Of a stretch of DNA of 64,000 nt, positions 16,967-36,436 are shown piece by piece; the first letter of the stretch is position 1; each line of letters begins with the position of its first letter. Below the pieces are notes generated by a model. The model did not search any database, was not told where the DNA came from, and saw only the letters and a list, made by a program, of their open reading frames with translations. The stretch spans positions 1 to 64,000 of the forward strand of contig JAOZHX010000004.1 of the NCBI GenBank assembly GCA_026014665.1, in the 5' to 3' direction. Both the position numbers and the translations under genes were made by a program. The DNA is from Candidatus Bathyarchaeota archaeon. Its GTDB lineage: Archaea > Thermoproteota > Bathyarchaeia > Bathyarchaeales > Bathycorpusculaceae.

Positions 16967-17694
16967 ACAAAAACCTCCACAAAGAAACCTTTATCCTCAA
17001 AGAAACTCAATGCACGATTATTTCTGATAAGCAAGAAGCCATCAAAATCGCCAAGGAAACCATAAAGCACAACAGGCAAGAACTCGAACTCTACGTTCGA
17101 GCCAACCCCAAGTTTCTGCACACCCTAACCCCTATTCCAGCGCCGCCAAAACCCCTCATAGCAAAATTGATGGCAGAAGCCGCACAGAAAGCAGGTGTCG
17201 GGCCAATGGCGGCAGTGGCAGGAGCCATAGCAGATTTAGCCGTTGAAGACATGGTGAAAACAGGCTGCGAAGTGGCTGTGGTGGAGGACGGCGGCGAAAT
17301 CTCAGCCATCTCAAACCAACCCGTCGACGTGGCAGTTGCCGCTGGCGAGGAACCGCTTTCAAAACGCTTCGGCTTCCGACTCACCGAGTTTCCAATCGGC
17401 GTCGCCACCAGTTCAGGACGATATAGCCACGCACTAAGTTTTGGAGACGCCGAAGCCGCAGTCGTTTTTTGCAAAGGAGCCACTTTAGCTGATGCCGTAG
17501 CCACAGCCGTCGGCAATGTGGTTAAAGGTGAGAATGTTGAAGAGGCAATTCAAGCTGGCATGAAAACTGGTTTATCGGTTGAAGGGGTTGACGGCATCCT
17601 TGTAATTTATAGGGGACAAGTTGGCACGGCAGGAAAAACCCCACAGATGATAAAGATAAACCATAATCAAGAATATCTTATCGAAACACAATGA
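16963..17694 (+). CDS. UPF0280 family protein (ApbE-like, MA1715-like)
   Basis: A protein of 243 residues with Ala/Gly-rich core motifs GPMAAVAGAIADLAVE, VEDGGEIS and FPIGVATSSGRYSHAL. The fold is related to ApbE flavin transferases. In methanogens the homologue is genetically linked to sulfur assimilation into homocysteine, although its reaction is not settled. The TTG at 16963 overlaps the previous stop as TTGA. Last gene of the homocysteine unit; 120 bases separate it from the aromatic leader peptide. Confidence 0.88.
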   Translation: MNKNLHKETFILKETQCTIISDKQEAIKIAKETIKHNRQELELYVRANPKFLHTLTPIPAPPKPLIAKLMAEAAQKAGVGPMAAVAGAIADLAVEDMVKTGCEVAVVEDGGEISAISNQPVDVAVAAGEEPLSKRFGFRLTEFPIGVATSSGRYSHALSFGDAEAAVVFCKGATLADAVATAVGNVVKGENVEEAIQAGMKTGLSVEGVDGILVIYRGQVGTAGKTPQMIKINHNQEYLIETQ

Positions 17695-17770
17695 TCTTAC
17701 ATTTGATTAAAACCTAAAAACGCAAGGTAAAACCCACCGATTAGCCCTTAAACTGTAGCTCAAATCCGAA

Positions 17771-17782
17771 ACGCTTATATTT
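17771..17782 (+). promoter_or_regulatory. TATA box before the aromatic leader peptide
   Basis: GCTTATATTTTTT lies about 35-45 bases before the leader ATG at 17816. It would put transcription start near 17800, so the leader peptide, hairpin and aspartokinase would be on one transcript with a short 5' end. Placement is typical for archaea; no other TATA-like box lies between here and 17961. Confidence 0.6.
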
Positions 17783-17815
17783 TTTGGGTGATGACTGATT
17801 GACAGGTTCGAAGCA

Positions 17816-17902
17816 ATGCACGACGCTGAAAACAAAACCGCAGGCAACAAGTCACAGTTCCTTAGCTTCGACTACTACTTTTATTATTACTATTTTACTT
17901 AA
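17816..17902 (+). CDS. Aromatic leader peptide (28 residues, Tyr/Phe-rich)
   Basis: ATG 17816 to TAA 17900-17902. The first half is polar (MHDAENKTAGNKSQ), then the sequence reads FLSFDYYFYYYYFT before the stop: six Tyr and four Phe, with eight aromatic codons among the last nine sense codons. Both Tyr codons (TAC and TAT) and both Phe codons (TTC and TTT) are used, so this is not a simple nucleotide repeat. It lies after a TATA box and ends at a hairpin before the aspartokinase/shikimate operon. The form is that of bacterial pheL-type attenuator peptides. Function is inferred; the peptide itself is probably not needed. Confidence 0.75.
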   Translation: MHDAENKTAGNKSQFLSFDYYFYYYYFT

Positions 17903-17939
17903 GCCCAGAACTAAAAAATTTTTAAGGAAAGTTCTGGGC
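17903..17939 (+). promoter_or_regulatory. Hairpin directly after the leader peptide stop codon (candidate attenuator)
   Basis: A perfect 10-bp inverted repeat: GCCCAGAACT at 17903-17912 and AGTTCTGGGC at 17930-17939, with a 17-base loop holding A6T5. The stem begins on the base after the leader stop codon, so a ribosome that reaches the stop would cover the left arm, while one held at the Tyr codons would leave it free. A possible competing pairing is TTCCTT (17858-17863) with AAGGAA (17924-17929). The stem ends eight bases before GGGTG, the likely ribosome site of aspartokinase, and is not followed by a T run, so control of translation is as likely as termination. Confidence 0.65.
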
Positions 17940-17960
17940 AAAGCATGGGTGTAAAAAGAA

Positions 17961-19205
17961 ATGGAAAAAAATATCTCTCCCAAAAAAATTGTGGTTAAAT
18001 TCGGCGGTTCCAGCCTTGCCGATCACGAGAGACTCCTCAAAGCTGTCAGGGCAGTAGTTAACGAAGCTAAAAAGGGCACAAAAATCGCCGTGGTAGTCTC
18101 CGCTATGGGTAAAACAACCGACGTTCTTATGACCACAGCTAAAAACACTTCGAATGGAAAACTAGAGAAAAAAGACCTCGACGACATCCTCTCGATGGGC
18201 GAACGAACCAGCATCCGCATCTTTGCCGCCGCTCTAAAAACCAACGGTGCAGACGCCACCTACTTCGACCCCATCGACTGTAACTGGCCCATAACTACAG
18301 ACGAAGCCTTCCAAAACGCCAACCCTATCCTGCAAGAATGCGAACTAAACATCAAAGAACGGATTCTTCCAGTCTTGGAGAAAGGCATCATACCCGTCGT
18401 CGCCGGTTTCATCGGAAAAACCAAGGATGGCAAAATCACCACACTTGGCAGGGGCGGAAGCGATACAACAGCGTTCATCTTAGCTCAAGCCCTAAACGCC
18501 GACCAAGTTGTCCTAGTAACAGATGCAGACGGCATCATGTCCGCTGACCCCAAAATCGTTCCCTCACCCAAACGTCTTCCAGAAATCAACGTCAACACCC
18601 TTGTCGGCTTAGCGGATTCAGGAGCCAAATTTATCCACAGCAAGGCTTTAAAGTACAAACCTAAGAACATCGACGTTAAAGTCATAAGCAACGCATATGG
18701 TGATCTCAGCAAAGAAGGCACCCTAATCACTGGAGCATTAGCCACGGAACTCGACGCAGAAATAGCGCATCCAACCCCAGTCGCAGAAATAACTGTAATT
18801 GGAAATGGACTTTCAGCCAACCCCCAAGTCATCACCGAAATCGTCCAGAAAGTCAAAGAAAACTCTATGCTGCTAGGTATGTCCATGAACACCAACTCCA
18901 TCATCCTCTACGTTCCACAAGAAAACAACGTTGACATCCTCATCAACCAAATCCATGACATAACCATCAGCAACAAAGAAACCATTGCCATGGCAGTCAA
19001 AAAAGACTTAGTTTTCATAAAAACAAGCGGAGTCGGCTTGGAAGAAACTCAAGGTATCATCGGCAGAATCAGCGAGAACCTCAGAGTCAACGGCATAAAC
19101 ATCAGCGGCATACTTACCATAACCTCAAGTATCCTGCTCTTTGTCGATTGGAACGAAAAAGAGAAAGCGCTAACATTAATTAAAAACTCAATTAAAAAGC
19201 AATAA
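17961..19205 (+). CDS. Aspartate kinase
   Basis: Phosphorylates aspartate, the first step to aspartate semialdehyde. The kinase domain starts VVKFGGSSLAD and has GFIGKTKDGKITTLGRGGSD and the DADGIMSADPK loop; tandem ACT domains occupy about residues 265-414 (ITVIGNGLSANPQVIT and VFIKTSGVGLEETQGIIGRI). In the archaeal DKFP route aspartate semialdehyde is a carbon source for dehydroquinate, so having this gene first in the shikimate operon makes sense. The aspartate-semialdehyde dehydrogenase is not in the window. A Tyr/Phe leader peptide and hairpin lie just upstream. Confidence 0.95.
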   Translation: MEKNISPKKIVVKFGGSSLADHERLLKAVRAVVNEAKKGTKIAVVVSAMGKTTDVLMTTAKNTSNGKLEKKDLDDILSMGERTSIRIFAAALKTNGADATYFDPIDCNWPITTDEAFQNANPILQECELNIKERILPVLEKGIIPVVAGFIGKTKDGKITTLGRGGSDTTAFILAQALNADQVVLVTDADGIMSADPKIVPSPKRLPEINVNTLVGLADSGAKFIHSKALKYKPKNIDVKVISNAYGDLSKEGTLITGALATELDAEIAHPTPVAEITVIGNGLSANPQVITEIVQKVKENSMLLGMSMNTNSIILYVPQENNVDILINQIHDITISNKETIAMAVKKDLVFIKTSGVGLEETQGIIGRISENLRVNGINISGILTITSSILLFVDWNEKEKALTLIKNSIKKQ

Positions 19206-19221: not shown

Positions 19222-20013
19222 ATGAACGAAGGCAAAACCCGCAGACTAAAACGAATAATGCAATCAGATAACCGAACAGTAATTGTGCCCATGGACCACG
19301 GGGTAACCGTCGGGCCCATCCAAGGCTTAACCAACATGCAAGAGATCACTGACAAACTTGTCAAAGGAAAAGCTGACGCCATACTTGTCCACAAAGGCAT
19401 AGCCAAACGCATCGACACCGCCAACGCAGGTTTAATAGTCATGCTCTCAGGCATGTCCAACCTCAGTCCCAACGTCAACGCCAAAGTCCAAGTTTGCAGC
19501 GTCCAAGAAGCCATACGCATAGGCGCAGACGCAGTCTCACTCCACATAAACGTAGGCGCACAAGACGAAGACAAGATGCTTCAAAACCTCGGCAAAGTCT
19601 CTGAAGAATGCGAACTCTTTGGCATGCCACTGCTTGCCATGATGTACCCACGCGGACCCAAAATCCAAAGCGAACACGACCCAACGGTGGTTGCACATGC
19701 AGCTCGCATCGGTGCAGAACTAGGCGCCGACATCATCAAAACCAACTATACCGGCAACATCGACACCTTCAAAACCGTCACCGAAAGCTGCCCCGCACCA
19801 GTCGTCATCGCAGGAGGACCAAAATGTAAATCAGTTCAGGAAGTACTGCAAACAACCAGCGACGCACTCAAAGCAGGCGCAGCAGGATTATCCATTGGAC
19901 GCAATATATTTCAATGTGAAGACCCAACGAAGATAACAGAAGCACTCGCTGCTATCGTCCACCAAAACGTAACTGTGGAGCAGGCGCAAAAAATTCTAGG
20001 TGAAAATTGTTGA
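19222..20013 (+). CDS. 2-amino-3,7-dideoxy-D-threo-hept-6-ulosonate (ADH) synthase
   Basis: A class I aldolase-fold enzyme of 263 residues, like MJ0400, that joins 6-deoxy-5-ketofructose 1-phosphate to aspartate semialdehyde: the first committed step of the archaeal shikimate route. Motifs: [15 protein letters not shown] at the N-terminus, [12 protein letters not shown], and IIKTNYTGN with the Schiff-base lysine. The related fructose-bisphosphate aldolase is excluded by context and by the short N-terminus. It follows aspartokinase by 16 bases with an AAGGAG ribosome site at 19204-19209. Confidence 0.93.
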
Positions 20014-21050
20014 AAGAACTCTGGCTAGAAATCCCTCAAACCGCTTCGGCGCAAGAAAAAGAAGCCTTACTCAGCGTTGCCCAGGATAGCGTTGATGTGG
20101 TCTTGTCGGATTCACAAGCCAGCAACCGAGAAGGCAAACTTGACATCGTCTTCCTTGGGGAATTAGACGAGAAAAAAATTGTTCAGCTAAAGAAAGAGGG
20201 CAAAAAAACTGCTTACCGCGTCACCATACAAGGCAAAGAGGATGAGAACAGGGCAGCCAAAGCCGCTGAAATCGGCGTTGACTATGTAATCATAAACACC
20301 CTCGACTGGCGGGTTATTCCGCTCGAGAATCTAATTGCCAAAGGTAGAGGAAAAAGCAAACTCATCGCCGAAGTCACGACGGCCGAGGACGCTAAATTGG
20401 TTTTGGAAGCCTTGGAACTCGGCACTGATGGTGTGTTACTCAAAACTGCCAACCATTTGGAACTGCAAAAAACCATAAAAGCCGTCAAACAGCAAACACC
20501 CAAAATATCCTTAACTCCCGCCAAAATCGTTTCCCTCAAACCCATCGGTTCAGGCGCAAGAGTCTGCGTTGACACCGTAGATTTGATGGTTCCAGGAGAA
20601 GGTATGTTGGTGGGTTGTCAATCTGCAGGGTTCTTTCTTGTTGAGGCAGAGGTCAACGAAAACCCCTATGTGCAGTCGCGTCCTTTCCGCGTGAACGCTG
20701 GGGCAGCCTCGCATTACACTTTGACTTCCCTTCAGAGCACAAGATACCTCTCCGAACTGAAAGCAGGAGACGAAGTCTTAATCGTCAGCCGAGAAGGCAA
20801 CGTCCGAGTTACAAACGTGGGAAGGTCCAAAATCGAGTTCCGACCACTCATACTAATCGAAGCCCAAGCAGACGGAACCAGAATAAAAACTATTCTTCAA
20901 AACGCTGAAACCATTCGCATAGTCACACCTAAAGCCTCAAAGCCCGTTACCGAACTCAAACCAAACGATGAAGTTATTGTGCACTTGGCAGCCAAAGGAG
21001 GCAGACACTTCGGCATATCGGTACCTGAAGAAACGGTGATTGAAAAGTGA
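20010..21050 (+). CDS. 3-dehydroquinate synthase II
   Basis: The archaeal, NAD-dependent enzyme that deaminates and cyclises the ADH product to 3-dehydroquinate (MJ1249 type). About 346 residues. Family blocks seen: LTPAKIVSLKPIGSGARVCV, VGCQSAGFFLVEAEVNENPY, RPFRVNAGAASHYTL and the ending KGGRHFGISVPEETVIEK. Two adjacent TTG codons can start it; I prefer 20010 because AGGTGA ends six bases before it. It overlaps the stop of ADH synthase as TTGA. Confidence 0.94.
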   Translation: MKELWLEIPQTASAQEKEALLSVAQDSVDVVLSDSQASNREGKLDIVFLGELDEKKIVQLKKEGKKTAYRVTIQGKEDENRAAKAAEIGVDYVIINTLDWRVIPLENLIAKGRGKSKLIAEVTTAEDAKLVLEALELGTDGVLLKTANHLELQKTIKAVKQQTPKISLTPAKIVSLKPIGSGARVCVDTVDLMVPGEGMLVGCQSAGFFLVEAEVNENPYVQSRPFRVNAGAASHYTLTSLQSTRYLSELKAGDEVLIVSREGNVRVTNVGRSKIEFRPLILIEAQADGTRIKTILQNAETIRIVTPKASKPVTELKPNDEVIVHLAAKGGRHFGISVPEETVIEK

Positions 21051-21733
21051 GTCCAAACATCTGCGTCTCGATTCTTCCCAGTAATATGGATCAAGCCCTG
21101 AGCTTAATCGAGAAGGCAGAACAAGCCCAAGCAAACCTTATAGAGGTTCGACTTGACTATTTGGAGGAGACAAGAAACCTTAAAACACTCACCTCAAGCA
21201 CAAACCTGCCCTTGATTGCAACAAACAAACTCCAAAGCGAAAAGGGCCACTTCTCCGGCAGCGAAAATGAGCGCCAACAAACTCTTCTTGAAGCTGCCAA
21301 AGATGGCTTTCAATACGTTGACATAGATTTTTCAAGCCCAAAACACGATGAAACGATCAGCAAAATAAAGGCTCTAGGAGCTAAACCAATCAGTTCCTAC
21401 CATAAATTTGATGGAATCTTGACCACTTCAGCTATGAAGAAAATTCTGGATGAGCAGATCGCCAGCGGAGCCAGCGTCTGCAAAATAGTGGTTACCGCTA
21501 AGCAAATAGAAGACAATCTGCCTATTCTGAGTTTTGTTTCGTTCGCTTCAACCAAAGCCAAGTTAGTATGTTTCTGCATGGGCGAAGAAGGCAAAATTTC
21601 AAGGCTCCTGTCCCCTCTGTTTGGCGCTTTCTTCACCTTTGCTTCACTTGAGCAGGGTAGTCAAACAGCGACTGGACAAATGAGCATTAATGAAATGCAC
21701 GCTGCATACCGTCTCTTGGGGATTAAGCTATGA
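21047..21733 (+). CDS. aroD: 3-dehydroquinate dehydratase, type I
   Basis: Converts 3-dehydroquinate to 3-dehydroshikimate through a Schiff-base lysine. A protein of 228 residues with ANLIEVRLDYLEE, ISSYHKFDG (the catalytic His), CKIVVTAKQIEDN (the lysine in KIV) and ATGQMSINEMHAAYR near the C-terminus. GTG at 21047 overlaps the preceding stop as GTGA, and the gene overlaps aroE by four bases. Normal length for the family. Confidence 0.94.
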   Translation: MSPNICVSILPSNMDQALSLIEKAEQAQANLIEVRLDYLEETRNLKTLTSSTNLPLIATNKLQSEKGHFSGSENERQQTLLEAAKDGFQYVDIDFSSPKHDETISKIKALGAKPISSYHKFDGILTTSAMKKILDEQIASGASVCKIVVTAKQIEDNLPILSFVSFASTKAKLVCFCMGEEGKISRLLSPLFGAFFTFASLEQGSQTATGQMSINEMHAAYRLLGIKL

Positions 21734-22587
21734 TTGTAACGGGGAAAACACGGGTTTGCGGTGTCATCGGCGACCCCATCGAGCATACGTTAAGTCCGAT
21801 AATACATAATGCAGCTTTTGAAGCCCTCAACCTTGACTACGTATTCTTAGCCTTCAAAGTCAAGTCTGCTTGGGTGGAAGCTGCAGTTAATGGTATGCGA
21901 GCCCTCAACCTTCGTGGGTTAAACGTAACCATGCCCCACAAGAGCGCAGTGATGAATTATTTAGACAGAATAGATTTGTCCGCTCAAATCGTAAACTCAG
22001 TCAACACCATCCTCAACAAGGAAAACCTTCTCTTCGGCTTCAACACAGACGGAATCGGAGCGCTCAAAGCCTTAAAAGAAAACGGCGTAGAGCTAAAAGG
22101 AAGAAAAATCCTCCTCTTAGGTGCAGGTGGAGCAGCAAGAGCTATAGCATACACGCTAGCCAAAGAAGCTGACGAATTGGCTGTTCTTAATAGAACCGTT
22201 AAACAAGCCGAAGGACTCGCAAAACTGCTGGAAAAATCGCTTAGCAAAAAGGTCGTTGCAGGCTCACTCAAACCAAGCGATATTCAACGTAACCTCCAAG
22301 ACTCCGACATATTGGTTAATGCCACTTCAGTAGGCATGAGTCCTAATGCCGAAGAGAGCCCCGTGCCGCCAAAATTGTTGCGGTCTAACCTGGCAGTTAT
22401 GGACATAGTCTATAATCCGGTTGAGACCAAACTGGCACAAGATGCCAAAGCGGCAGGAGCCAAAGTGGTAAGCGGCGTTGACATGTTAATTCACCAAGGC
22501 GCAGCTTCCTTTGAAATCTGGACTGGAAAATCTGCTCCCATCGAAGTTATGAGGAAGGTAGCGCTAAAACACTTACAGAAGGTGTAA
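21730..22587 (+). CDS. aroE: Shikimate dehydrogenase
   Basis: NADP-dependent reduction of 3-dehydroshikimate. A protein of 285 residues: the N-terminal substrate domain has GDPIEHTLSPIIHNAAFE and NVTMPHKSAVM with the catalytic lysine; the Rossmann domain has LLLGAGGAARAIAYTLA and NRTVKQAEG; DMLIHQGAASFEIWTG lies near the C-terminus. ATG overlaps the aroD stop. All active-site residues that I can check are present. Confidence 0.96.
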   Translation: MIVTGKTRVCGVIGDPIEHTLSPIIHNAAFEALNLDYVFLAFKVKSAWVEAAVNGMRALNLRGLNVTMPHKSAVMNYLDRIDLSAQIVNSVNTILNKENLLFGFNTDGIGALKALKENGVELKGRKILLLGAGGAARAIAYTLAKEADELAVLNRTVKQAEGLAKLLEKSLSKKVVAGSLKPSDIQRNLQDSDILVNATSVGMSPNAEESPVPPKLLRSNLAVMDIVYNPVETKLAQDAKAAGAKVVSGVDMLIHQGAASFEIWTGKSAPIEVMRKVALKHLQKV

Positions 22588-22590
22588 CCA

Positions 22591-23466
22591 TTGACGGGAC
22601 AAGCGTCGGCTATAGCGCATGGTGCAGCAACAATCGTTAACGCAATTGCGCTGGGTAAAGGTGCAGCTTTCGGTGTCGATTTGTGGACTAAGGCATATGT
22701 CCAGTTGACTGATAAACCAGGCGTCATAGAGGCGCAGATTATTTGTGACGCAAAAGAAAGCACATTACTTATTGAAAAAACGGTGTTGAGGGTTCTTCAA
22801 AGGTTCGGTTTAGAGAAACGGTTTGGTGCCAAAGTTAAAACCGATTCAAACATTCCCATAGCACGTGGACTCAAAAGCAGCAGTGCAGCCGCAAACGCAA
22901 TTGCCCTTGCCACCACGACCGCGCTTAACAAAACTTTGGAAGACTTAGAACTGATTAAAATCGGTGTGGAAGCAGCTTTTGATGCTAAAGTGACGGTTAC
23001 GGGCGCTTTTGATGATGCGTGCGCTTCTTTTTTTGGCGGTGCAGTTATTACAGACAATACCAAACGGCAAATACTCGATCAGTTGCCTCTGCCCCAAGAT
23101 TTAGTGGTCCTGCTTCATGTGCCACCTCAGAAAGCCTACACTATCCACACAAACTTAAACAGGCTTAAACCCATGGCTCCGCTTGTCGAAATCGCTTTTG
23201 AACAAGCGTTGAAAGGCAAAATTTGGCAAGCCCTAACTCTAAACGGTTTAATCTATTCCTCCGCTTCCACCCTAAATTCTGCAATAGCTATCGACGCGTT
23301 AGCCGCAGGCGCCCTCGCTGCAGGGTTATGTGGCAAAGGTCCAGCCGTCACAGTGGTTGTTCCAAACGACAAAGTTGACGAGGTAAAAACTGCTCTAGAA
23401 GCTTATGACGGCGAAATCTTGACGACACACTTTAACAGCGAAAAAGCTAAGGTGCTCAACCCATGA
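22591..23466 (+). CDS. Archaeal shikimate kinase (GHMP kinase family)
   Basis: Phosphorylates shikimate. It is not related to bacterial AroK but to homoserine and mevalonate kinases. A protein of 291 residues with the GHMP ATP loop (PIARGLKSSSAAANAIALAT), DDACASFFGGAVITDN and a C-terminal GLCGKGPAVTVVV. TTG at 22591, three bases after the aroE stop. It overlaps aroA by four bases. The Ala/Gly-rich start (TGQASAIAHGAATIVNAIAL) matches archaeal members. Confidence 0.94.
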   Translation: MTGQASAIAHGAATIVNAIALGKGAAFGVDLWTKAYVQLTDKPGVIEAQIICDAKESTLLIEKTVLRVLQRFGLEKRFGAKVKTDSNIPIARGLKSSSAAANAIALATTTALNKTLEDLELIKIGVEAAFDAKVTVTGAFDDACASFFGGAVITDNTKRQILDQLPLPQDLVVLLHVPPQKAYTIHTNLNRLKPMAPLVEIAFEQALKGKIWQALTLNGLIYSSASTLNSAIAIDALAAGALAAGLCGKGPAVTVVVPNDKVDEVKTALEAYDGEILTTHFNSEKAKVLNP

Positions 23467-24761
23467 CGGATGTAATCGTTCACAAAAGTGCACATTTAAG
23501 CGGAGTCGTCTGTGCACCGCCATCGAAATCTTATACCCAAAGGATGGTCATAGCCGCGTCTCTAGCCGAGGGCACCTCAAAAATTTCAAACCCCCTCCAA
23601 GCAGAGGACACCAAAGCAACCATCCGAGCAGTCACCGCGTTGGGCGCCAAAGTAAAAAAAGCCTCAGGATGCTGGATTATCCAGGGAACCACCTCGTTAA
23701 AAGGCGCAAAGAAACCAATCGATTGTGGCGAGTCGGGGGCAACTTTGCGGTTCATGGTACCGGTTGCCGCCCTTGCTGAGGGGTCGTCAATTTTGACTTT
23801 TCGTGGTTCGATTGAGAGGCGACCCATAGAGCCTTTGCTGGGAAGCCTCAAAGACTTGGGTGCAGAGGCACACGTAGGAAAGTTCGGCAATAGGGATGGT
23901 GTATTTGTTTCAGGAAACGGCATCGTTGGAGGTGCAACCTCGATTGCTGGCGATGTCAGTTCGCAGTTCATTTCAGGTTTAATGTTTGCATCCCCCTTGG
24001 CAAAAAAAGACACGGAGATAACGCTTACTTCACCGCTAGAATCCGCGGATTATGTAAAGATGACTGAAGCAGTTTTGTCTAGGCACGCTATCGTAGTCGG
24101 AGTTAAAGATAACTGTATAGCAGTTCCTGCAAATCAAACCTATAAAGCCGCAGACGACAGAGTGCCTGGCGATTTCTCTTCAGCTGCATTTCTTTTGGCT
24201 GCTGCAGCCATAACCCAATCGAAAATTCAAGTAACTAACCTTGATTATCAAACGGTTCAGGGAGATAAAGAGATTCTGCGCATCCTAAAAGAAATGGGTG
24301 TAAACGGCAAAGTCTGTGCCGACAACGTAGAAATCGAAGACTTAGGCAACCTTTTAAAGCCCATAGAGGTTGATGCAAAACATATCCCAGACCTTGTTCC
24401 AGCCATAGCGGCTCTCGCATGCTACGCGAAGGGGACATCGAGGGTTTTTGGCGCTCGCAGATTAAGGTTAAAGGAATCTGACCGTCTGGAATCGCTTTAC
24501 TCAGAGTTGACGAAGATGGGCGCTAAAATCCGCATCAACGATGACGGCTTAACCGTGCAGGGTGGAAACCGCTTGCATGGCGCAGTCATTGATTCCCATA
24601 ACGACCACCGCATTGCCATGGCTTGTACTGTTGCGGCTTTGGGTGCTGAGGGTGAAACCGTCATTCAGAATGCGGAATGCACCAGAAAGTCTTATCCACA
24701 GTTCTTCACTCATCTAAAACAGATAGGAGCCGATGTAGTTGGCGGGAAATTCGATAGGTAA
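23463..24761 (+). CDS. aroA: 3-phosphoshikimate 1-carboxyvinyltransferase (EPSP synthase)
   Basis: Adds enolpyruvyl from PEP to shikimate 3-phosphate. A protein of 432 residues with PPSKSYTQRMVIAASLAEG, DCGESGATLRFMVPVA, SSQFISGLMFA, RVPGDFSSAAF, RLRLKESDRLES and SHNDHRIAMA. The active-site loop contains GAT rather than the GNA common in glyphosate-sensitive bacterial enzymes; archaeal proteins often vary here. It overlaps shikimate kinase by four and aroC by about 23 bases. Confidence 0.96.
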   Translation: MTDVIVHKSAHLSGVVCAPPSKSYTQRMVIAASLAEGTSKISNPLQAEDTKATIRAVTALGAKVKKASGCWIIQGTTSLKGAKKPIDCGESGATLRFMVPVAALAEGSSILTFRGSIERRPIEPLLGSLKDLGAEAHVGKFGNRDGVFVSGNGIVGGATSIAGDVSSQFISGLMFASPLAKKDTEITLTSPLESADYVKMTEAVLSRHAIVVGVKDNCIAVPANQTYKAADDRVPGDFSSAAFLLAAAAITQSKIQVTNLDYQTVQGDKEILRILKEMGVNGKVCADNVEIEDLGNLLKPIEVDAKHIPDLVPAIAALACYAKGTSRVFGARRLRLKESDRLESLYSELTKMGAKIRINDDGLTVQGGNRLHGAVIDSHNDHRIAMACTVAALGAEGETVIQNAECTRKSYPQFFTHLKQIGADVVGGKFDR

Positions 24762-25842
24762 AGAATTCATCGTTACCAGCTTCGGCGAAAGCCATGGCAA
24801 AGTCGTCGGCGTCGTAGTAGACGGATGCCCAGCAGGTTTGCCGCTTTCTGAAGCAGACTTTCAAGAGGAACTTGACCGTAGAATCCCAGCCGAGCGAAAG
24901 ATTGTTTCAGCCAGAATAGAAAAGGACAACGTGAAAATTCTCTCTGGCGTCTTCAACGGCTTCGCTACGGGTGCCCCCATAGCTGTCATGGTTGAGAATA
25001 AAGAAACAAATTCAAACGATTACGAAGCCATCAAAGACCTGCCCAGACCTGGCCATTCAGATTATCCAGCACGCATAAAATACGGTGGATTTAACGATTA
25101 CCGAGGCGGTGGTCGATTCAGCGGAAGAATCACCGTAGCCCTAATTCTGGCAGGAGTCATAGCTAAGAAACTGCTAAATCGTTATAACGTCGACGTATTA
25201 GCCTACACCATAGCAATCGGCAACATTAAAAGCACCAAAAAGTTCACCGCAGAAGAAATCCGCAAAAACCGTAGCCAAGCATCTACGAGATGCCCCGATT
25301 TGTCATGCGCAGAGCGGATGGAGGAAGCCATAATCGCGGCTAAGGCAGCAGGCGACAGCGTCGGCGGCGTCGTGGAATGCATTGCACTAAACATGCCCGT
25401 CGGCGTAGGCGAACCGTTGTTTGATGCGTTGGATGCTGATTTGGCGAAAGCGGTGTTTGCGATTCCTGCTGTGAAGGGTGTGGAGTTTGGCGCTGGCTTT
25501 AGAGCTGCTGAGTTGATGGGTTCCCAAAACAACGATGCTTTTCTTGTGGAAGGCGGCAAAGTCGTCACTGCAACTGAGAACGCAGGCGGCGTATTAGGAG
25601 GGCTATCCAACGGTATGCCCATTGAACTTCGAGTGGCAATCAAACCGACACCTTCTATAGCAAAGGAACAGCGAACCGTTAACCTCTCAGCGATGGAAAA
25701 TGCCAGCATAACTGTGAAGGGCAGACATGACCCCTGTGTGGTTCCCAAAGCCGTGCCTGCCATCGAAGCGGTGGTTGCCATAACTTTAGCTGACCACATG
25801 ATACGTTCAGGTGTTATCCCTAAAGTTCTCAAGGCGCATTAA
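24739..25842 (+). CDS. aroC: Chorismate synthase
   Basis: Removes phosphate from EPSP to form chorismate, using reduced flavin. A protein of 367 residues with FIVTSFGESHGKVVGVVVDG, RPGHSDYPARIKYGGFNDYRGGG-type block at about 100-125, EFGAGFRAAELMGSQNND, and ENAGGVLGGLSNG. TTG at 24739 is the annotated start; the protein proper begins about GKEFIVTSFGE. It completes the chorismate pathway begun at 19222. Confidence 0.96.
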   Translation: MAGNSIGKEFIVTSFGESHGKVVGVVVDGCPAGLPLSEADFQEELDRRIPAERKIVSARIEKDNVKILSGVFNGFATGAPIAVMVENKETNSNDYEAIKDLPRPGHSDYPARIKYGGFNDYRGGGRFSGRITVALILAGVIAKKLLNRYNVDVLAYTIAIGNIKSTKKFTAEEIRKNRSQASTRCPDLSCAERMEEAIIAAKAAGDSVGGVVECIALNMPVGVGEPLFDALDADLAKAVFAIPAVKGVEFGAGFRAAELMGSQNNDAFLVEGGKVVTATENAGGVLGGLSNGMPIELRVAIKPTPSIAKEQRTVNLSAMENASITVKGRHDPCVVPKAVPAIEAVVAITLADHMIRSGVIPKVLKAH

Positions 25843-25844
25843 AA

Positions 25845-26105
25845 ATGGATGACCTAACAGAGCTGAGACGGAAAATCGATCAACTCGACGACCAAGTCCT
25901 GTTGGCTCTATCTGAACGAGTGAAAGTATGCAGAGCCATTGGCGAAGTGAAGAAAAAACAAGGCATGCCAATTCGCGACGCCTTAAGAGAAAAAGAGGTT
26001 TATAACCGCATCAAACAGAGGGCGGTGGAATTTGGTCTAGATGCTGGTCAGGTTGAAGCGCTTTACCACGAAATAGTTAATATGTGCAGTGCTGTTCAAG
26101 AGTAA
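25845..26105 (+). CDS. Chorismate mutase (AroQ type)
   Basis: A protein of 86 residues, all helical, that turns chorismate into prephenate. Seen: LTELRRKIDQLDDQVLLALS, RVKVCRAIGEVKKKQGMPI and the final helix AGQVEALYHEIVNMCSAV. Length and catalytic Arg/Lys pattern match the free-standing AroQ domain. It sits two bases after aroC, directing chorismate to Tyr and Phe. Confidence 0.94.
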   Translation: MDDLTELRRKIDQLDDQVLLALSERVKVCRAIGEVKKKQGMPIRDALREKEVYNRIKQRAVEFGLDAGQVEALYHEIVNMCSAVQE

Positions 26106-26132
26106 GGAACTCTCAACTGAGAGGCAATAAGT

Positions 26133-27212
26133 ATGCTCTACGAAATAAACGAGAAAGCCCTTAAATTGGAAAGTGAAGGAAAAAAGATTATTCGCCTAAA
26201 CCTAGGTGACCCAGACATGGCTACGCCACCTGAAATAGTGGAGGCTGCATACGCTTCGATGAAAGCAGGCAAAACCAAGTACGCCTCTTCCTACGGTGAA
26301 ACCAGGTTGCGCCAAAAACTCGCCGAAGCCCACGGGGTTAAAGTAGAGAACGTCGTTATTACTCCTGGTTCAAAATGGGGCATATTCGCCACGATGTTTT
26401 TAATGATGAAAGGCGGAGGCAACGTCATCATCCCCACACCTTACTGGACAGCCTACGATTTAACAGCCAAAGCCATAGGCGCAAAGACCAAGCTCCTGCG
26501 CACGGAACTGGAGAACGATTGGAAAGTGGACCTTGAAGCTCTTGAAAGTATGATTGATAAAGATACACGGATGATTATCCTGAACAATCCAAACAACCCA
26601 ACCAGCAAAGTCATAGACCCAGAAACTCTTGATGGCATCGTTGAAATCGCCAACAAAAAAGGCATAACCATCCTCTCCGACGAGGTTTATGGCACAATCG
26701 CTTTCACTAAAACCAAAAGCATCCTCGAATACGATGGCGCCTGCAGACACATCTTAAGCAACGGCTTCTCTAAAACCTTCACCATGACAGGGTGGCGCAT
26801 CGGCTATATAATTGCCAATAAAATGTTAGTGGATAACATCACCAAACTCAACCAAATAACCATAAACAACGTTCCCGTCTTTATTCAGGATGCAGCCCTT
26901 AAAGGACTTGAACTTCACCGAGAAATTGCCTCCAAAATCAAAGAAAAATACAGACATCGAGCTGACTTGGCGACTACCAAGCTTGCTGCAGCAGGGTTCA
27001 AATTCAGCAAACCCGATGCACCCTTCTATGTGTTCCCCAAACTAGACGGCTTAGACAGCGAAAAATTCACGCTAAACCTGCTAGATAAAGGCGTCGCTGT
27101 CGCTCCAGGCACAGCTTTTGGCGATTATCGAGAACACTTCCGCATCTCTCTAACAGCACCTGACGAAGAAATCGAGGTTGCACTAGACAAAATCTGCGAG
27201 GCAGCTCAATGA
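26133..27212 (+). CDS. Class I PLP aminotransferase (aromatic/aspartate type)
   Basis: A protein of 359 residues of fold type I: LNLGDPDMATPPEIVEAAY, TPGSKWGIFATMF, NNPNNPTSKVIDPE, SDEVYGTIAF, and SNGFSKTFTMTGWRIGY with the PLP lysine. Place between chorismate mutase and prephenate dehydrogenase suggests that it aminates phenylpyruvate and hydroxyphenylpyruvate, or prephenate; sequence alone does not exclude an aspartate role. Overlaps tyrA by four bases. Confidence 0.9.
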   Translation: MLYEINEKALKLESEGKKIIRLNLGDPDMATPPEIVEAAYASMKAGKTKYASSYGETRLRQKLAEAHGVKVENVVITPGSKWGIFATMFLMMKGGGNVIIPTPYWTAYDLTAKAIGAKTKLLRTELENDWKVDLEALESMIDKDTRMIILNNPNNPTSKVIDPETLDGIVEIANKKGITILSDEVYGTIAFTKTKSILEYDGACRHILSNGFSKTFTMTGWRIGYIIANKMLVDNITKLNQITINNVPVFIQDAALKGLELHREIASKIKEKYRHRADLATTKLAAAGFKFSKPDAPFYVFPKLDGLDSEKFTLNLLDKGVAVAPGTAFGDYREHFRISLTAPDEEIEVALDKICEAAQ

Positions 27213-28084
27213 AGATAGCTGTGATCGGCGCTGGAAAGATGGGTGTTTGGTTCGCTAAGTTTTTCCAGTCAAAAGGCCACACGGTAATACTTGCCGATCG
27301 AAAAGCTGAAAAATTAGCGGAGCTAAAAAAAGAATTAAACGTTGAAGTTACAAATGATTTTAAGGTGGCAGTTCAAGGCGTTGACCAAGTCCTACTTTGC
27401 GTATCCATAAACGCCATCGAAGAAGTCGCCAAAACCATAAGTCCTGCCCTGCGTGAAGGCCAAGTAGTCATGGATATTGCTTCCATTAAAGAAGCTCCAG
27501 TCAAAGCCATGCACCAATACATAAAGGGCGCCACTGTTCTTGGCACGCATCCCGTTTTTGGTCCAGGAAGCAACGGCGTCAAACATAAAGCCTACATACT
27601 CACGCCTATCAACCCAAAGGAGCAGGAAGTTGCAGAGCAGTTTAAACAGTGGCTTGAGCAAGAGGAAGCGCACGTTTTCATCATGACGCCCCAAAAACAC
27701 GATCAGCTAATGTCGGTCGTATTGGGGCTTCCGCATTTTGTTGGCTTGGTCGCTTGTGAGACGCTTCTAGAGCAGAAAAATTTGGCTGAAACAAAAGAGG
27801 TCACGGGAACCACGTATCGGATGCTTTTTACGCTGGCAGAAGCCACTGCGTTGGAAACCCCTGACTTGTACGCAAGCCTGCAGACCAACCTTCCCGAGTT
27901 GGGAAAAGTCGAGGACTTGTTTATGGCTAAAGCTCAGGAATGGCTCAGCTTGATTAAGAATAAGGATGCGGAAGCAATCGTGGCGCGGATGGAGCAGCTC
28001 AAGAAGAGGCTTATGGAATCAGACAGAGACTTTGACAAGAGCTATGACGTCATGTACAAAATGCTTGAGTCAATTGAAAAATAA
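27209..28084 (+). CDS. tyrA: Prephenate dehydrogenase
   Basis: NAD(P)-dependent oxidation of prephenate to hydroxyphenylpyruvate. A protein of 291 residues with the Rossmann start MKIAVIGAGKMGVWFAKFF, VMDIASIKEAPVKAM, LGTHPVFGPGSNG (the catalytic His is in this loop) and VVLGLPHFVGLVACETL. No chorismate mutase or ACT domain is fused. ATG overlaps the aminotransferase stop. Confidence 0.93.
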   Translation: MKIAVIGAGKMGVWFAKFFQSKGHTVILADRKAEKLAELKKELNVEVTNDFKVAVQGVDQVLLCVSINAIEEVAKTISPALREGQVVMDIASIKEAPVKAMHQYIKGATVLGTHPVFGPGSNGVKHKAYILTPINPKEQEVAEQFKQWLEQEEAHVFIMTPQKHDQLMSVVLGLPHFVGLVACETLLEQKNLAETKEVTGTTYRMLFTLAEATALETPDLYASLQTNLPELGKVEDLFMAKAQEWLSLIKNKDAEAIVARMEQLKKRLMESDRDFDKSYDVMYKMLESIEK

Positions 28085-36170: not shown

Positions 36171-36436
36171 TGCATTCTACTCCTCATTAAAGTGTTAAGC
36201 GTAGTATGATCTAGAAGAGTTGGTTGCGAGAATTTTTCCGTGGCTGTTTTAGAGGTAAACCTACAAGGGTTAGAGAATTTGTACCCGACGATCCCAGCTA
36301 TTGAGGTGACGATCCCTCATTTTCTTGCCTCTTGAAACTCCACGTACCTTAAACGTACAGCTTCTTGCAAATAAAAACCTTGTGGTGTCTGCTGCTCTGT
36401 TTCTTTTCAGCTCTCTGAAATTCATTACTAATTTTC
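36171..36436. other. Leader region of the ilv-leu operon
   Basis: A stretch without a long gene. On the minus strand ATG 36320 opens a 16-codon frame ending in V-Q-I-L (stop at 36270), a weak candidate for a branched-chain leader peptide. GGGATCGTC occurs twice, 22 bases apart, around 36285-36315. No terminator-like hairpin comparable to that before aspartokinase is clear. Confidence 0.35.

Follow-up and report, generated by a model that had tools for sequence, protein, structure and literature searches.

A Tyr/Phe-rich leader ORF that looks like a leader-peptide attenuator in front of an archaeal aspartokinase–shikimate–tyrA operon

The aspartokinase–shikimate–tyrA operon of the window (the whole 64,000-nucleotide stretch analysed here, from a Bathyarchaeota archaeon) is very probably controlled by a ribosome-mediated leader-peptide attenuator sensing charged Tyr- and Phe-tRNA. 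Comparison with related loci supports the leader-peptide attenuation proposed in the earlier note: selection acts on the aromatic codons, a stem begins at the stop codon, and three pairings among four segments of the leader RNA, 1:2, 1:3 and 3:4, are supported across groups of relatives. The element looks like a leader-peptide attenuator in an archaeon, a mechanism so far known only from bacteria.

The leader ORF (17816–17902; like all further features on the forward strand unless stated otherwise) has 28 codons and a stop, encodes MHDAENKTAGNKSQFLSFDYYFYYYYFT, and is defined by its reading frame, by comparison across relatives and by shuffles. The control codons near its end, read from the sequence, are Tyr Tyr Phe Tyr Tyr Tyr Tyr Phe (17873–17896), spelled TAC TAC TTT TAT TAT TAC TAT TTT, i.e. 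with synonymous codons mixed, as described earlier. An ORF scan of the 64 kb gave no other short ORF whose last 12 residues include 8 or more Tyr/Phe.

The TATA box placed near 17771 in the earlier note was found as the TATA-like CTTATAT (17774–17780), which together with a BRE-like TCCGAAACG forms an archaeal promoter (17765–17783); TCCGAAA-CGCTTATAT blocks resembling it occupy the same place in most loci of the window's family, f1, among those listed. From the usual TATA-to-start spacing we infer that transcription of the leader starts near 17800–17806. Segment 1, GGTTCGAAGC (17805–17814), would then be at the mRNA's 5′ end, immediately ahead of the leader start codon, and pairs with segment 2, GCTTCGA (17865–17871), situated in codons S17-F18-D19 directly 5′ of the Tyr/Phe run; the former is based on f1 helix counts and swap tests, the latter on the f1 alignment and helix counts. 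Segment 3 (17903–17912) is the 5′ arm of the stem, GCCCAGAACT, starting at the first base past the stop codon TAA, and segment 4 (17930–17939) is its 3′ arm, AGTTCTGGGC, both resting on the sequence, helix counts and the swap test. The two arms form the perfect 10-bp stem reported before, closed by a loop (17913–17929) with a T5 run that is not conserved in all relatives. Downstream lies GGTG (17948–17951), which we take to be the Shine-Dalgarno (SD) sequence of aspartokinase by its match to the archaeal anti-SD. As had been stated, no T run follows the stem, and a terminator pattern scan of 17600–18100 found no terminator-like site. The folding energy of the whole leader (z −1.3) is not unusually stable and was dropped as evidence; the support for the element is therefore comparative and not thermodynamic.

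The genes downstream proved by profile matches to be those named earlier. Aspartate kinase (17961–19205; NF005159, 388 bits against a cut-off of 379) is the first gene of the operon and is followed by genes for ADH synthase, DHQ synthase II, aroD, aroE, an archaeal shikimate kinase, aroA, aroC, an aminotransferase and tyrA (19222–28084); several of the matches score well yet stay under the curated cut-offs, e.g. those of DHQ synthase II, the aminotransferase and tyrA. ADH synthase and DHQ synthase II, encoded by the two genes directly after aspartokinase, are the entry to the archaeal aromatic pathway and consume aspartate semialdehyde, which is presumably supplied by the aspartokinase encoded here. 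Aspartokinase, first in the operon with these two genes next to it, therefore heads aromatic synthesis, and a Tyr/Phe sensor at this position makes sense.

A search of 150 genomes gave an aspartokinase match in 117, orthologs and paralogs pooled. Within the order, 70 ortholog loci (48–100% identity, the window's counted) were read with their upstream DNA, matches at contig ends in G100 and G124 being left out. A short ORF ending in Tyr/Phe precedes aspartokinase in all 70, nearly always with a stem at the stop codon, and the leader stop lies 38–77 nt from the aligned aspK start. Examples of the aromatic ends are SFDYGFYYFGYFP (L006), SFEYCFYYRFHN (L023), YSFSYFFYN (L046), FFTYFSGYYTTF (L062) and FSGYWYIFSY (L070). 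The ORF of L068 was assigned by eye, the script having chosen a wrong frame. No operon without the frame or the hairpin, the finding that would have spoken against the attenuator, turned up among the orthologs read in the order, one of which (L072) has an aspartokinase 80% identical to the window's; in L057 and L060 the stem is weak yet the frame is present. Among named relatives carrying this gene, the closest three are Candidatus Bathyarchaeota. L191, of the same order, has a distant aspartokinase (39%) and no leader, and is taken as a paralog. By a fixed rule of at least 5 Tyr/Phe among the last 12 residues of an upstream ORF (L154, at a contig end, left out of the scan), 72 of the order's 73 aspK loci score, whereas dinucleotide shuffles do so in 2.9% of cases; the control genes gave 1/20 for separate aroA′-like genes, 1/30 for ilvB and 0/30 for hisG. 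From 40 of the leaders a covariance model was made for the leader's 3′ portion; it recovers these 40 by construction and misses more distant forms. At E ≤ 1e-3 it matches once in each of 58 genomes out of 256 searched in the class. By the coordinates of the aspartokinase matches, 57 of these are at aspK; the remaining one (G188) is not next to a known aspK, N letters mask the gene that follows, and its leader start codon reads ATT.

The stem was examined in 77 leaders. Its score in base pairs is at least 20 in 64 of them, versus 5.4 of 77 in shuffles, and in a free stem search the stem starts −3 to +4 nt from the end of the stop codon in 70. Stem length was dropped as evidence, at least 7 bp being found in 75 of 77 leaders and also in 40 of 77 shuffles. 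TTTT occurs near the stem end in 11 leaders only; a stem with a T-run just before the SD is present in L062, L068 and L160, and T4–T5 follow the 3:4 stem in families f9 and f12. Within f1, 96.4% of cells in the helices are paired overall, 1:2 reaching 99.7% (46 sequences) and 3:4 94.1%. Changes on both sides are seen in 5 pairs and 14 cells, neither number being reached in any of 500 shuffles. When the partners are shifted by −2 columns, changes on both sides appear in 6 pairs and 9 cells, and only 32% of cells are paired. A change on both sides is found in L032, where C to T in segment 1 is matched by G to A in segment 2, turning Ser into Asn in the peptide.

In the swap test the duplex energy of a leader's own two segments was compared with that of segments from other groups (36 groups, 10,000 swaps, at most four sequences per group, with all sequences used for own pairs in the first test). 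Own partners were better for 3:4 (z −12.1), 1:2 (z −4.9) and 1:3 (z −4.8), each with 0/10,000 swaps as good. The combinations 1:4 (z +1.8), 2:3 (z 0.0) and 2:4 (z −0.7) were no better than swapped and serve as a control for base composition. The effect per group is modest, the own mate ranking best in 11/36 groups for 3:4, in 4/36 for 1:2 and in 1/36 for 1:3. It is also unevenly distributed. The 1:3 pairing gives z −4.0 in the 16 groups that belong to the class but not to the f1 core, and z +1.9 within f1, so that it is unsupported in the window's own family; 1:2 gives z −3.1 among the 46 f1 sequences (7/5000), z +0.4 between the eight f1 groups and z −1.4, not significant, in the 16 groups outside, where 2:4 has z −2.0. 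Twelve groups of other classes show 3:4 at z −3.5, 1:2 at z −2.9 and 1:3 at z −2.1. Leaders in which 1:3 is strong include L316 and L050. From these comparisons the element resembles a switch in which segment 1 is shared between segments 2 and 3, more clearly so outside f1.

The leader would work as follows. When Tyr and Phe are plentiful, the ribosome would pass the run and depart, segment 1 would pair with segment 2, also shutting the leader start region to new ribosomes, and segment 3 would pair with segment 4, the resulting 3:4 stem reducing expression of the operon. When either amino acid is short, the ribosome would stall in the run and mask segment 2; the freed segment 1 could then pair with segment 3, no 3:4 stem would form and the operon would be on. 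In the window's family, with its unsupported 1:3, a free segment 1 might instead keep admitting ribosomes, so that the stop-codon region would stay occupied and 3:4 would again not form. In f9 and f12 the 3:4 stem with T4–T5 just before the SD resembles a terminator, and for the window's family translational control and factor-dependent termination are equally possible.

The effect of a ribosome on the pairings was modelled by masking the textbook footprint, 18 nt upstream of the A site and 12 nt counted from it, in at most five sequences per group. With the A site 36, 27, 18 and 9 nt before the stop codon, 1:2 falls from 6.5 bp to 2.1, 0.6, 1.6 and 3.4 bp, respectively. The 3:4 stem falls from 11.8 to 9.3 bp with the A site 6 nt before the stop and to 3.1 bp at the stop, and only positions at or next to the stop do so. 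Even when a ribosome is stalled, 3:4 beats 1:3 at equilibrium in almost every group. Because of this, the switch would need kinetic folding during transcription, and this requirement is the weakest link of the model.

The same masking results speak for control of the opposite sign. In this case a ribosome that has completed the peptide and waits at the stop codon would open the stem, or reinitiate on its far side; plentiful Tyr/Phe would then raise aspartokinase and starvation would lower it. A ribosome at the stop codon is indeed what removes 3:4 in the calculation, and the stop codon lies at the foot of the stem in the great majority of leaders (the 70 of 77 above). Such control would nevertheless give the wrong feedback for a biosynthetic operon and would leave the pairings 1:2 and 1:3 unexplained. 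Moreover, the distance of 38–77 nt from leader stop to aspK exceeds the 30 nt beyond which, according to PMC12548453, little coupling was seen in the tested gene pairs of E. coli and H. volcanii. We regard control of this sign as unlikely.

The leader ORF could also encode a small protein with a function of its own, e.g. a membrane-active aromatic peptide, and its conservation over a very long time would fit such a role. The composition of the peptide was analysed in the 77 leaders sorted into 24 groups (L054 and L056, whose leader is the same as that of L053, being out of the group counts); the N part has 1.0 Tyr/Phe in 13 residues. Against a small protein, the length of the ORF ranges from 16 to 44 residues in the sets used, its N part is free, and little beyond the aromatic content is common between families. 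The covariance model detected no convincing second copy, nor a leader before other genes, in the genomes where the leader was found. A small protein is thus a very improbable explanation.

The same leaders bear on another alternative, an RNA element that binds a metabolite or a protein and whose aromatic codons arise incidentally from U/A-rich sequence. The high conservation of segments 1 and 2 at the DNA level in f1 would agree with it, while the frame-specificity of the bias is against it: the last 12 codons hold 7.08 Tyr+Phe in frame versus 1.05 and 1.18 in the other frames, and shuffles of these codons give 3.16 (sd 0.19). Codon usage in the leaders (TAT 217, TAC 83, TTT 152, TTC 109, TGG 13) includes all four Tyr/Phe codons; the Tyr/Phe content is conserved, the codon spelling and the front half are not, and Trp is hardly involved. 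Between families the segment sequences differ and the aromatic codons and pairings persist. Neither does 17600–18200 contain any Rfam match up to E 1, and hence any known Rfam leader family. A binding element is accordingly about as improbable as the small protein. The control codons, being frame-specific and of mixed synonymous spelling, are retained by selection on the peptide. Chance, with Tyr/Phe codons arising by accident in AT-rich intergenic DNA beside an inverted repeat, has nothing but base composition in its favour. It is refuted by the order-wide comparison; for the window alone, 5 of 5000 dinucleotide shuffles of the last 36 bases reach its 9 Tyr/Phe. The probability of chance is negligible.

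The leader-peptide attenuators of Proteobacteria include pheL, trpL and hisL. The predicted attenuator shares with them a short ORF rich in codons for the products of the operon, predicted competing RNA pairings, a biosynthetic operon downstream and a logic in which a ribosome would read tRNA charging. It differs from them in its archaeal host and in that the shared segment is the 5′UTR one (segment 1 with 2 or 3), not segment 2; the control codons are placed at the ORF's end, between segments 2 and 3, the stem begins at the stop codon, and in the window's family no U-run follows the stem. A general statement on such attenuators is found in PMC1183508. The translational attenuator of ermC, as presented in PMC10219788, is similar in that a stalled ribosome alters the fold before the SD of the next gene; here, unlike there, the signal would be an amino acid and not a drug, and the SD lies 8 nt past the stem, not within it. 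In its introduction the same paper attributes a role to uORFs in archaea as well, citing reviews. According to PMC6737238, TrpY of Methanothermobacter and Tar (TK0271) of Thermococcus are archaeal regulators of aromatic amino-acid operons; unlike the leader of the window, they are proteins binding promoter DNA. That study also states that almost no Crenarchaeota genomes have TrpY or Tar and that a third regulator or mechanism may exist. A 2021 paper states that no such attenuator was known in archaea, and no archaeal leader-peptide attenuator is named in the titles or abstract openings among the matches listed from the open-access literature, preprints not included.

The leader, found across an archaeal order and in further classes, provides a specific case whose coordinates are exactly defined and of which numerous natural variants exist. 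If it acts as proposed, transcription or the start of translation in archaea must be tied to leader translation closely enough for control. The leader is a candidate for the unexplained control of aromatic operons in archaea devoid of TrpY and Tar, and it raises the question of whether attenuation predates the divergence of bacteria and archaea or has two separate origins. Ribosome reading of amino-acid supply may even be old and general in the phylum, with the Tyr/Phe attenuator predating the class split and sister genes using a +1 frameshift at starved codons (Trp before TrpE, possibly Val before IlvB), a tentative proposal to which we give slightly less than an even chance.

The expectation that in relatives the aromatic codons and the stem would persist and other parts diverge holds largely within the order and is only partly borne out beyond it: the orthologs read in the order all retain the ORF, and the distant ones are split. 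In other orders of the class 7 of 35 aspK loci score by the fixed rule. Six of these (L158, L160, L165, L166, L169 and L179, of the five families f12, f13, f19, f14 and f23) were accepted, and the seventh, L184, was not, its match having another layout. The layout is absent before aspK in families f10, f15, f18 and f21, as well as in the one locus that was read for each of f26 and f27. Of 20 loci from other classes of the phylum, 10 score (1% in shuffles), and 15 have such an ORF when judged by eye with Trp counted. A single example read by eye, L079 (recorded as Jordarchaeia), shows before aspK a tiny ORF, VMWMDYFFMHN, with complementary sequence close by. In L281 (G082, same family) aroA′ is present and this aspartokinase was not found in the searches; the leader and aspK are absent and a promoter-like TTCCGAAATGCTTTT remains.

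The aspK genes of the sister families carry another conserved upstream element (L156, L157, L159, L161, L163 and L164 of f15; L162, L167, L168, L170–L178 and L180 of f10; L181–L188 of f18 and f21). It is open in two frames, one reading FGDGVY or HLYW and the next FSVMAFT, VIFTG or FSGGLVFT. In the 13 f10 loci and in 4 of the 6 f15 loci the second frame is fused to aspK; in the 8 f18/f21 loci its end lies between −2 and +29 nt relative to the aspK start. A frameshift reading for aspK of f10 and f15 was not adopted, the aspK frame having its own GTG in the loci parsed as fused.

Leaders of the classical type were also sought before other genes. Before ilvB the fixed rule, which counts Tyr/Phe only, gave a single locus of 30 over the threshold; no hisG locus of 30 has at least 5 His among the last 12 residues of an upstream ORF, and hisG may not be first in its operon. 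Separate aroA′-like genes, considered as carriers of a moved leader, gave one locus of 20 over the threshold (L290, with the ORF well upstream).

Upstream of trpE (L192–L219, from the same genus and others) a tiny ORF of the form M/V-[GR]-[ND]-x-x-W is found in 23 of 26 loci, and its Trp codon follows NTT. TrpE itself is read in the +1 frame, which lacks any ATG, GTG or TTG ahead of a conserved TrpE motif in 16 of the 24 loci parsed; in the copy of the window's genome (L214, near 1410) a TTG is present there. The RF2 frameshift site is CUU-UGA. The arrangement at trpE suggests an RF2-like +1 frameshift at NUU-UGG when Trp-tRNA is short. Upstream of ilvB (36171–36320 of the window, reverse strand, and L251–L280) a mini-ORF beginning [AG]TGAGGG[AG] is present in 29 of 30 loci and contains an Arg-Val or Trp-Val step in 28 of 29; the element has no Rfam match. 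The +1 frame of the mini-ORF (GIVTSIAGIVGY...) is open to the ilvB start in 29 of 29 loci, with 11 stops, all at most 2 nt from the ilvB start, versus totals of 117 and 98 for the other frames, even though the +1 frame has no start codon and its first codon comes after a stop. The ilvB element is a candidate for a frameshift combined with translational coupling.
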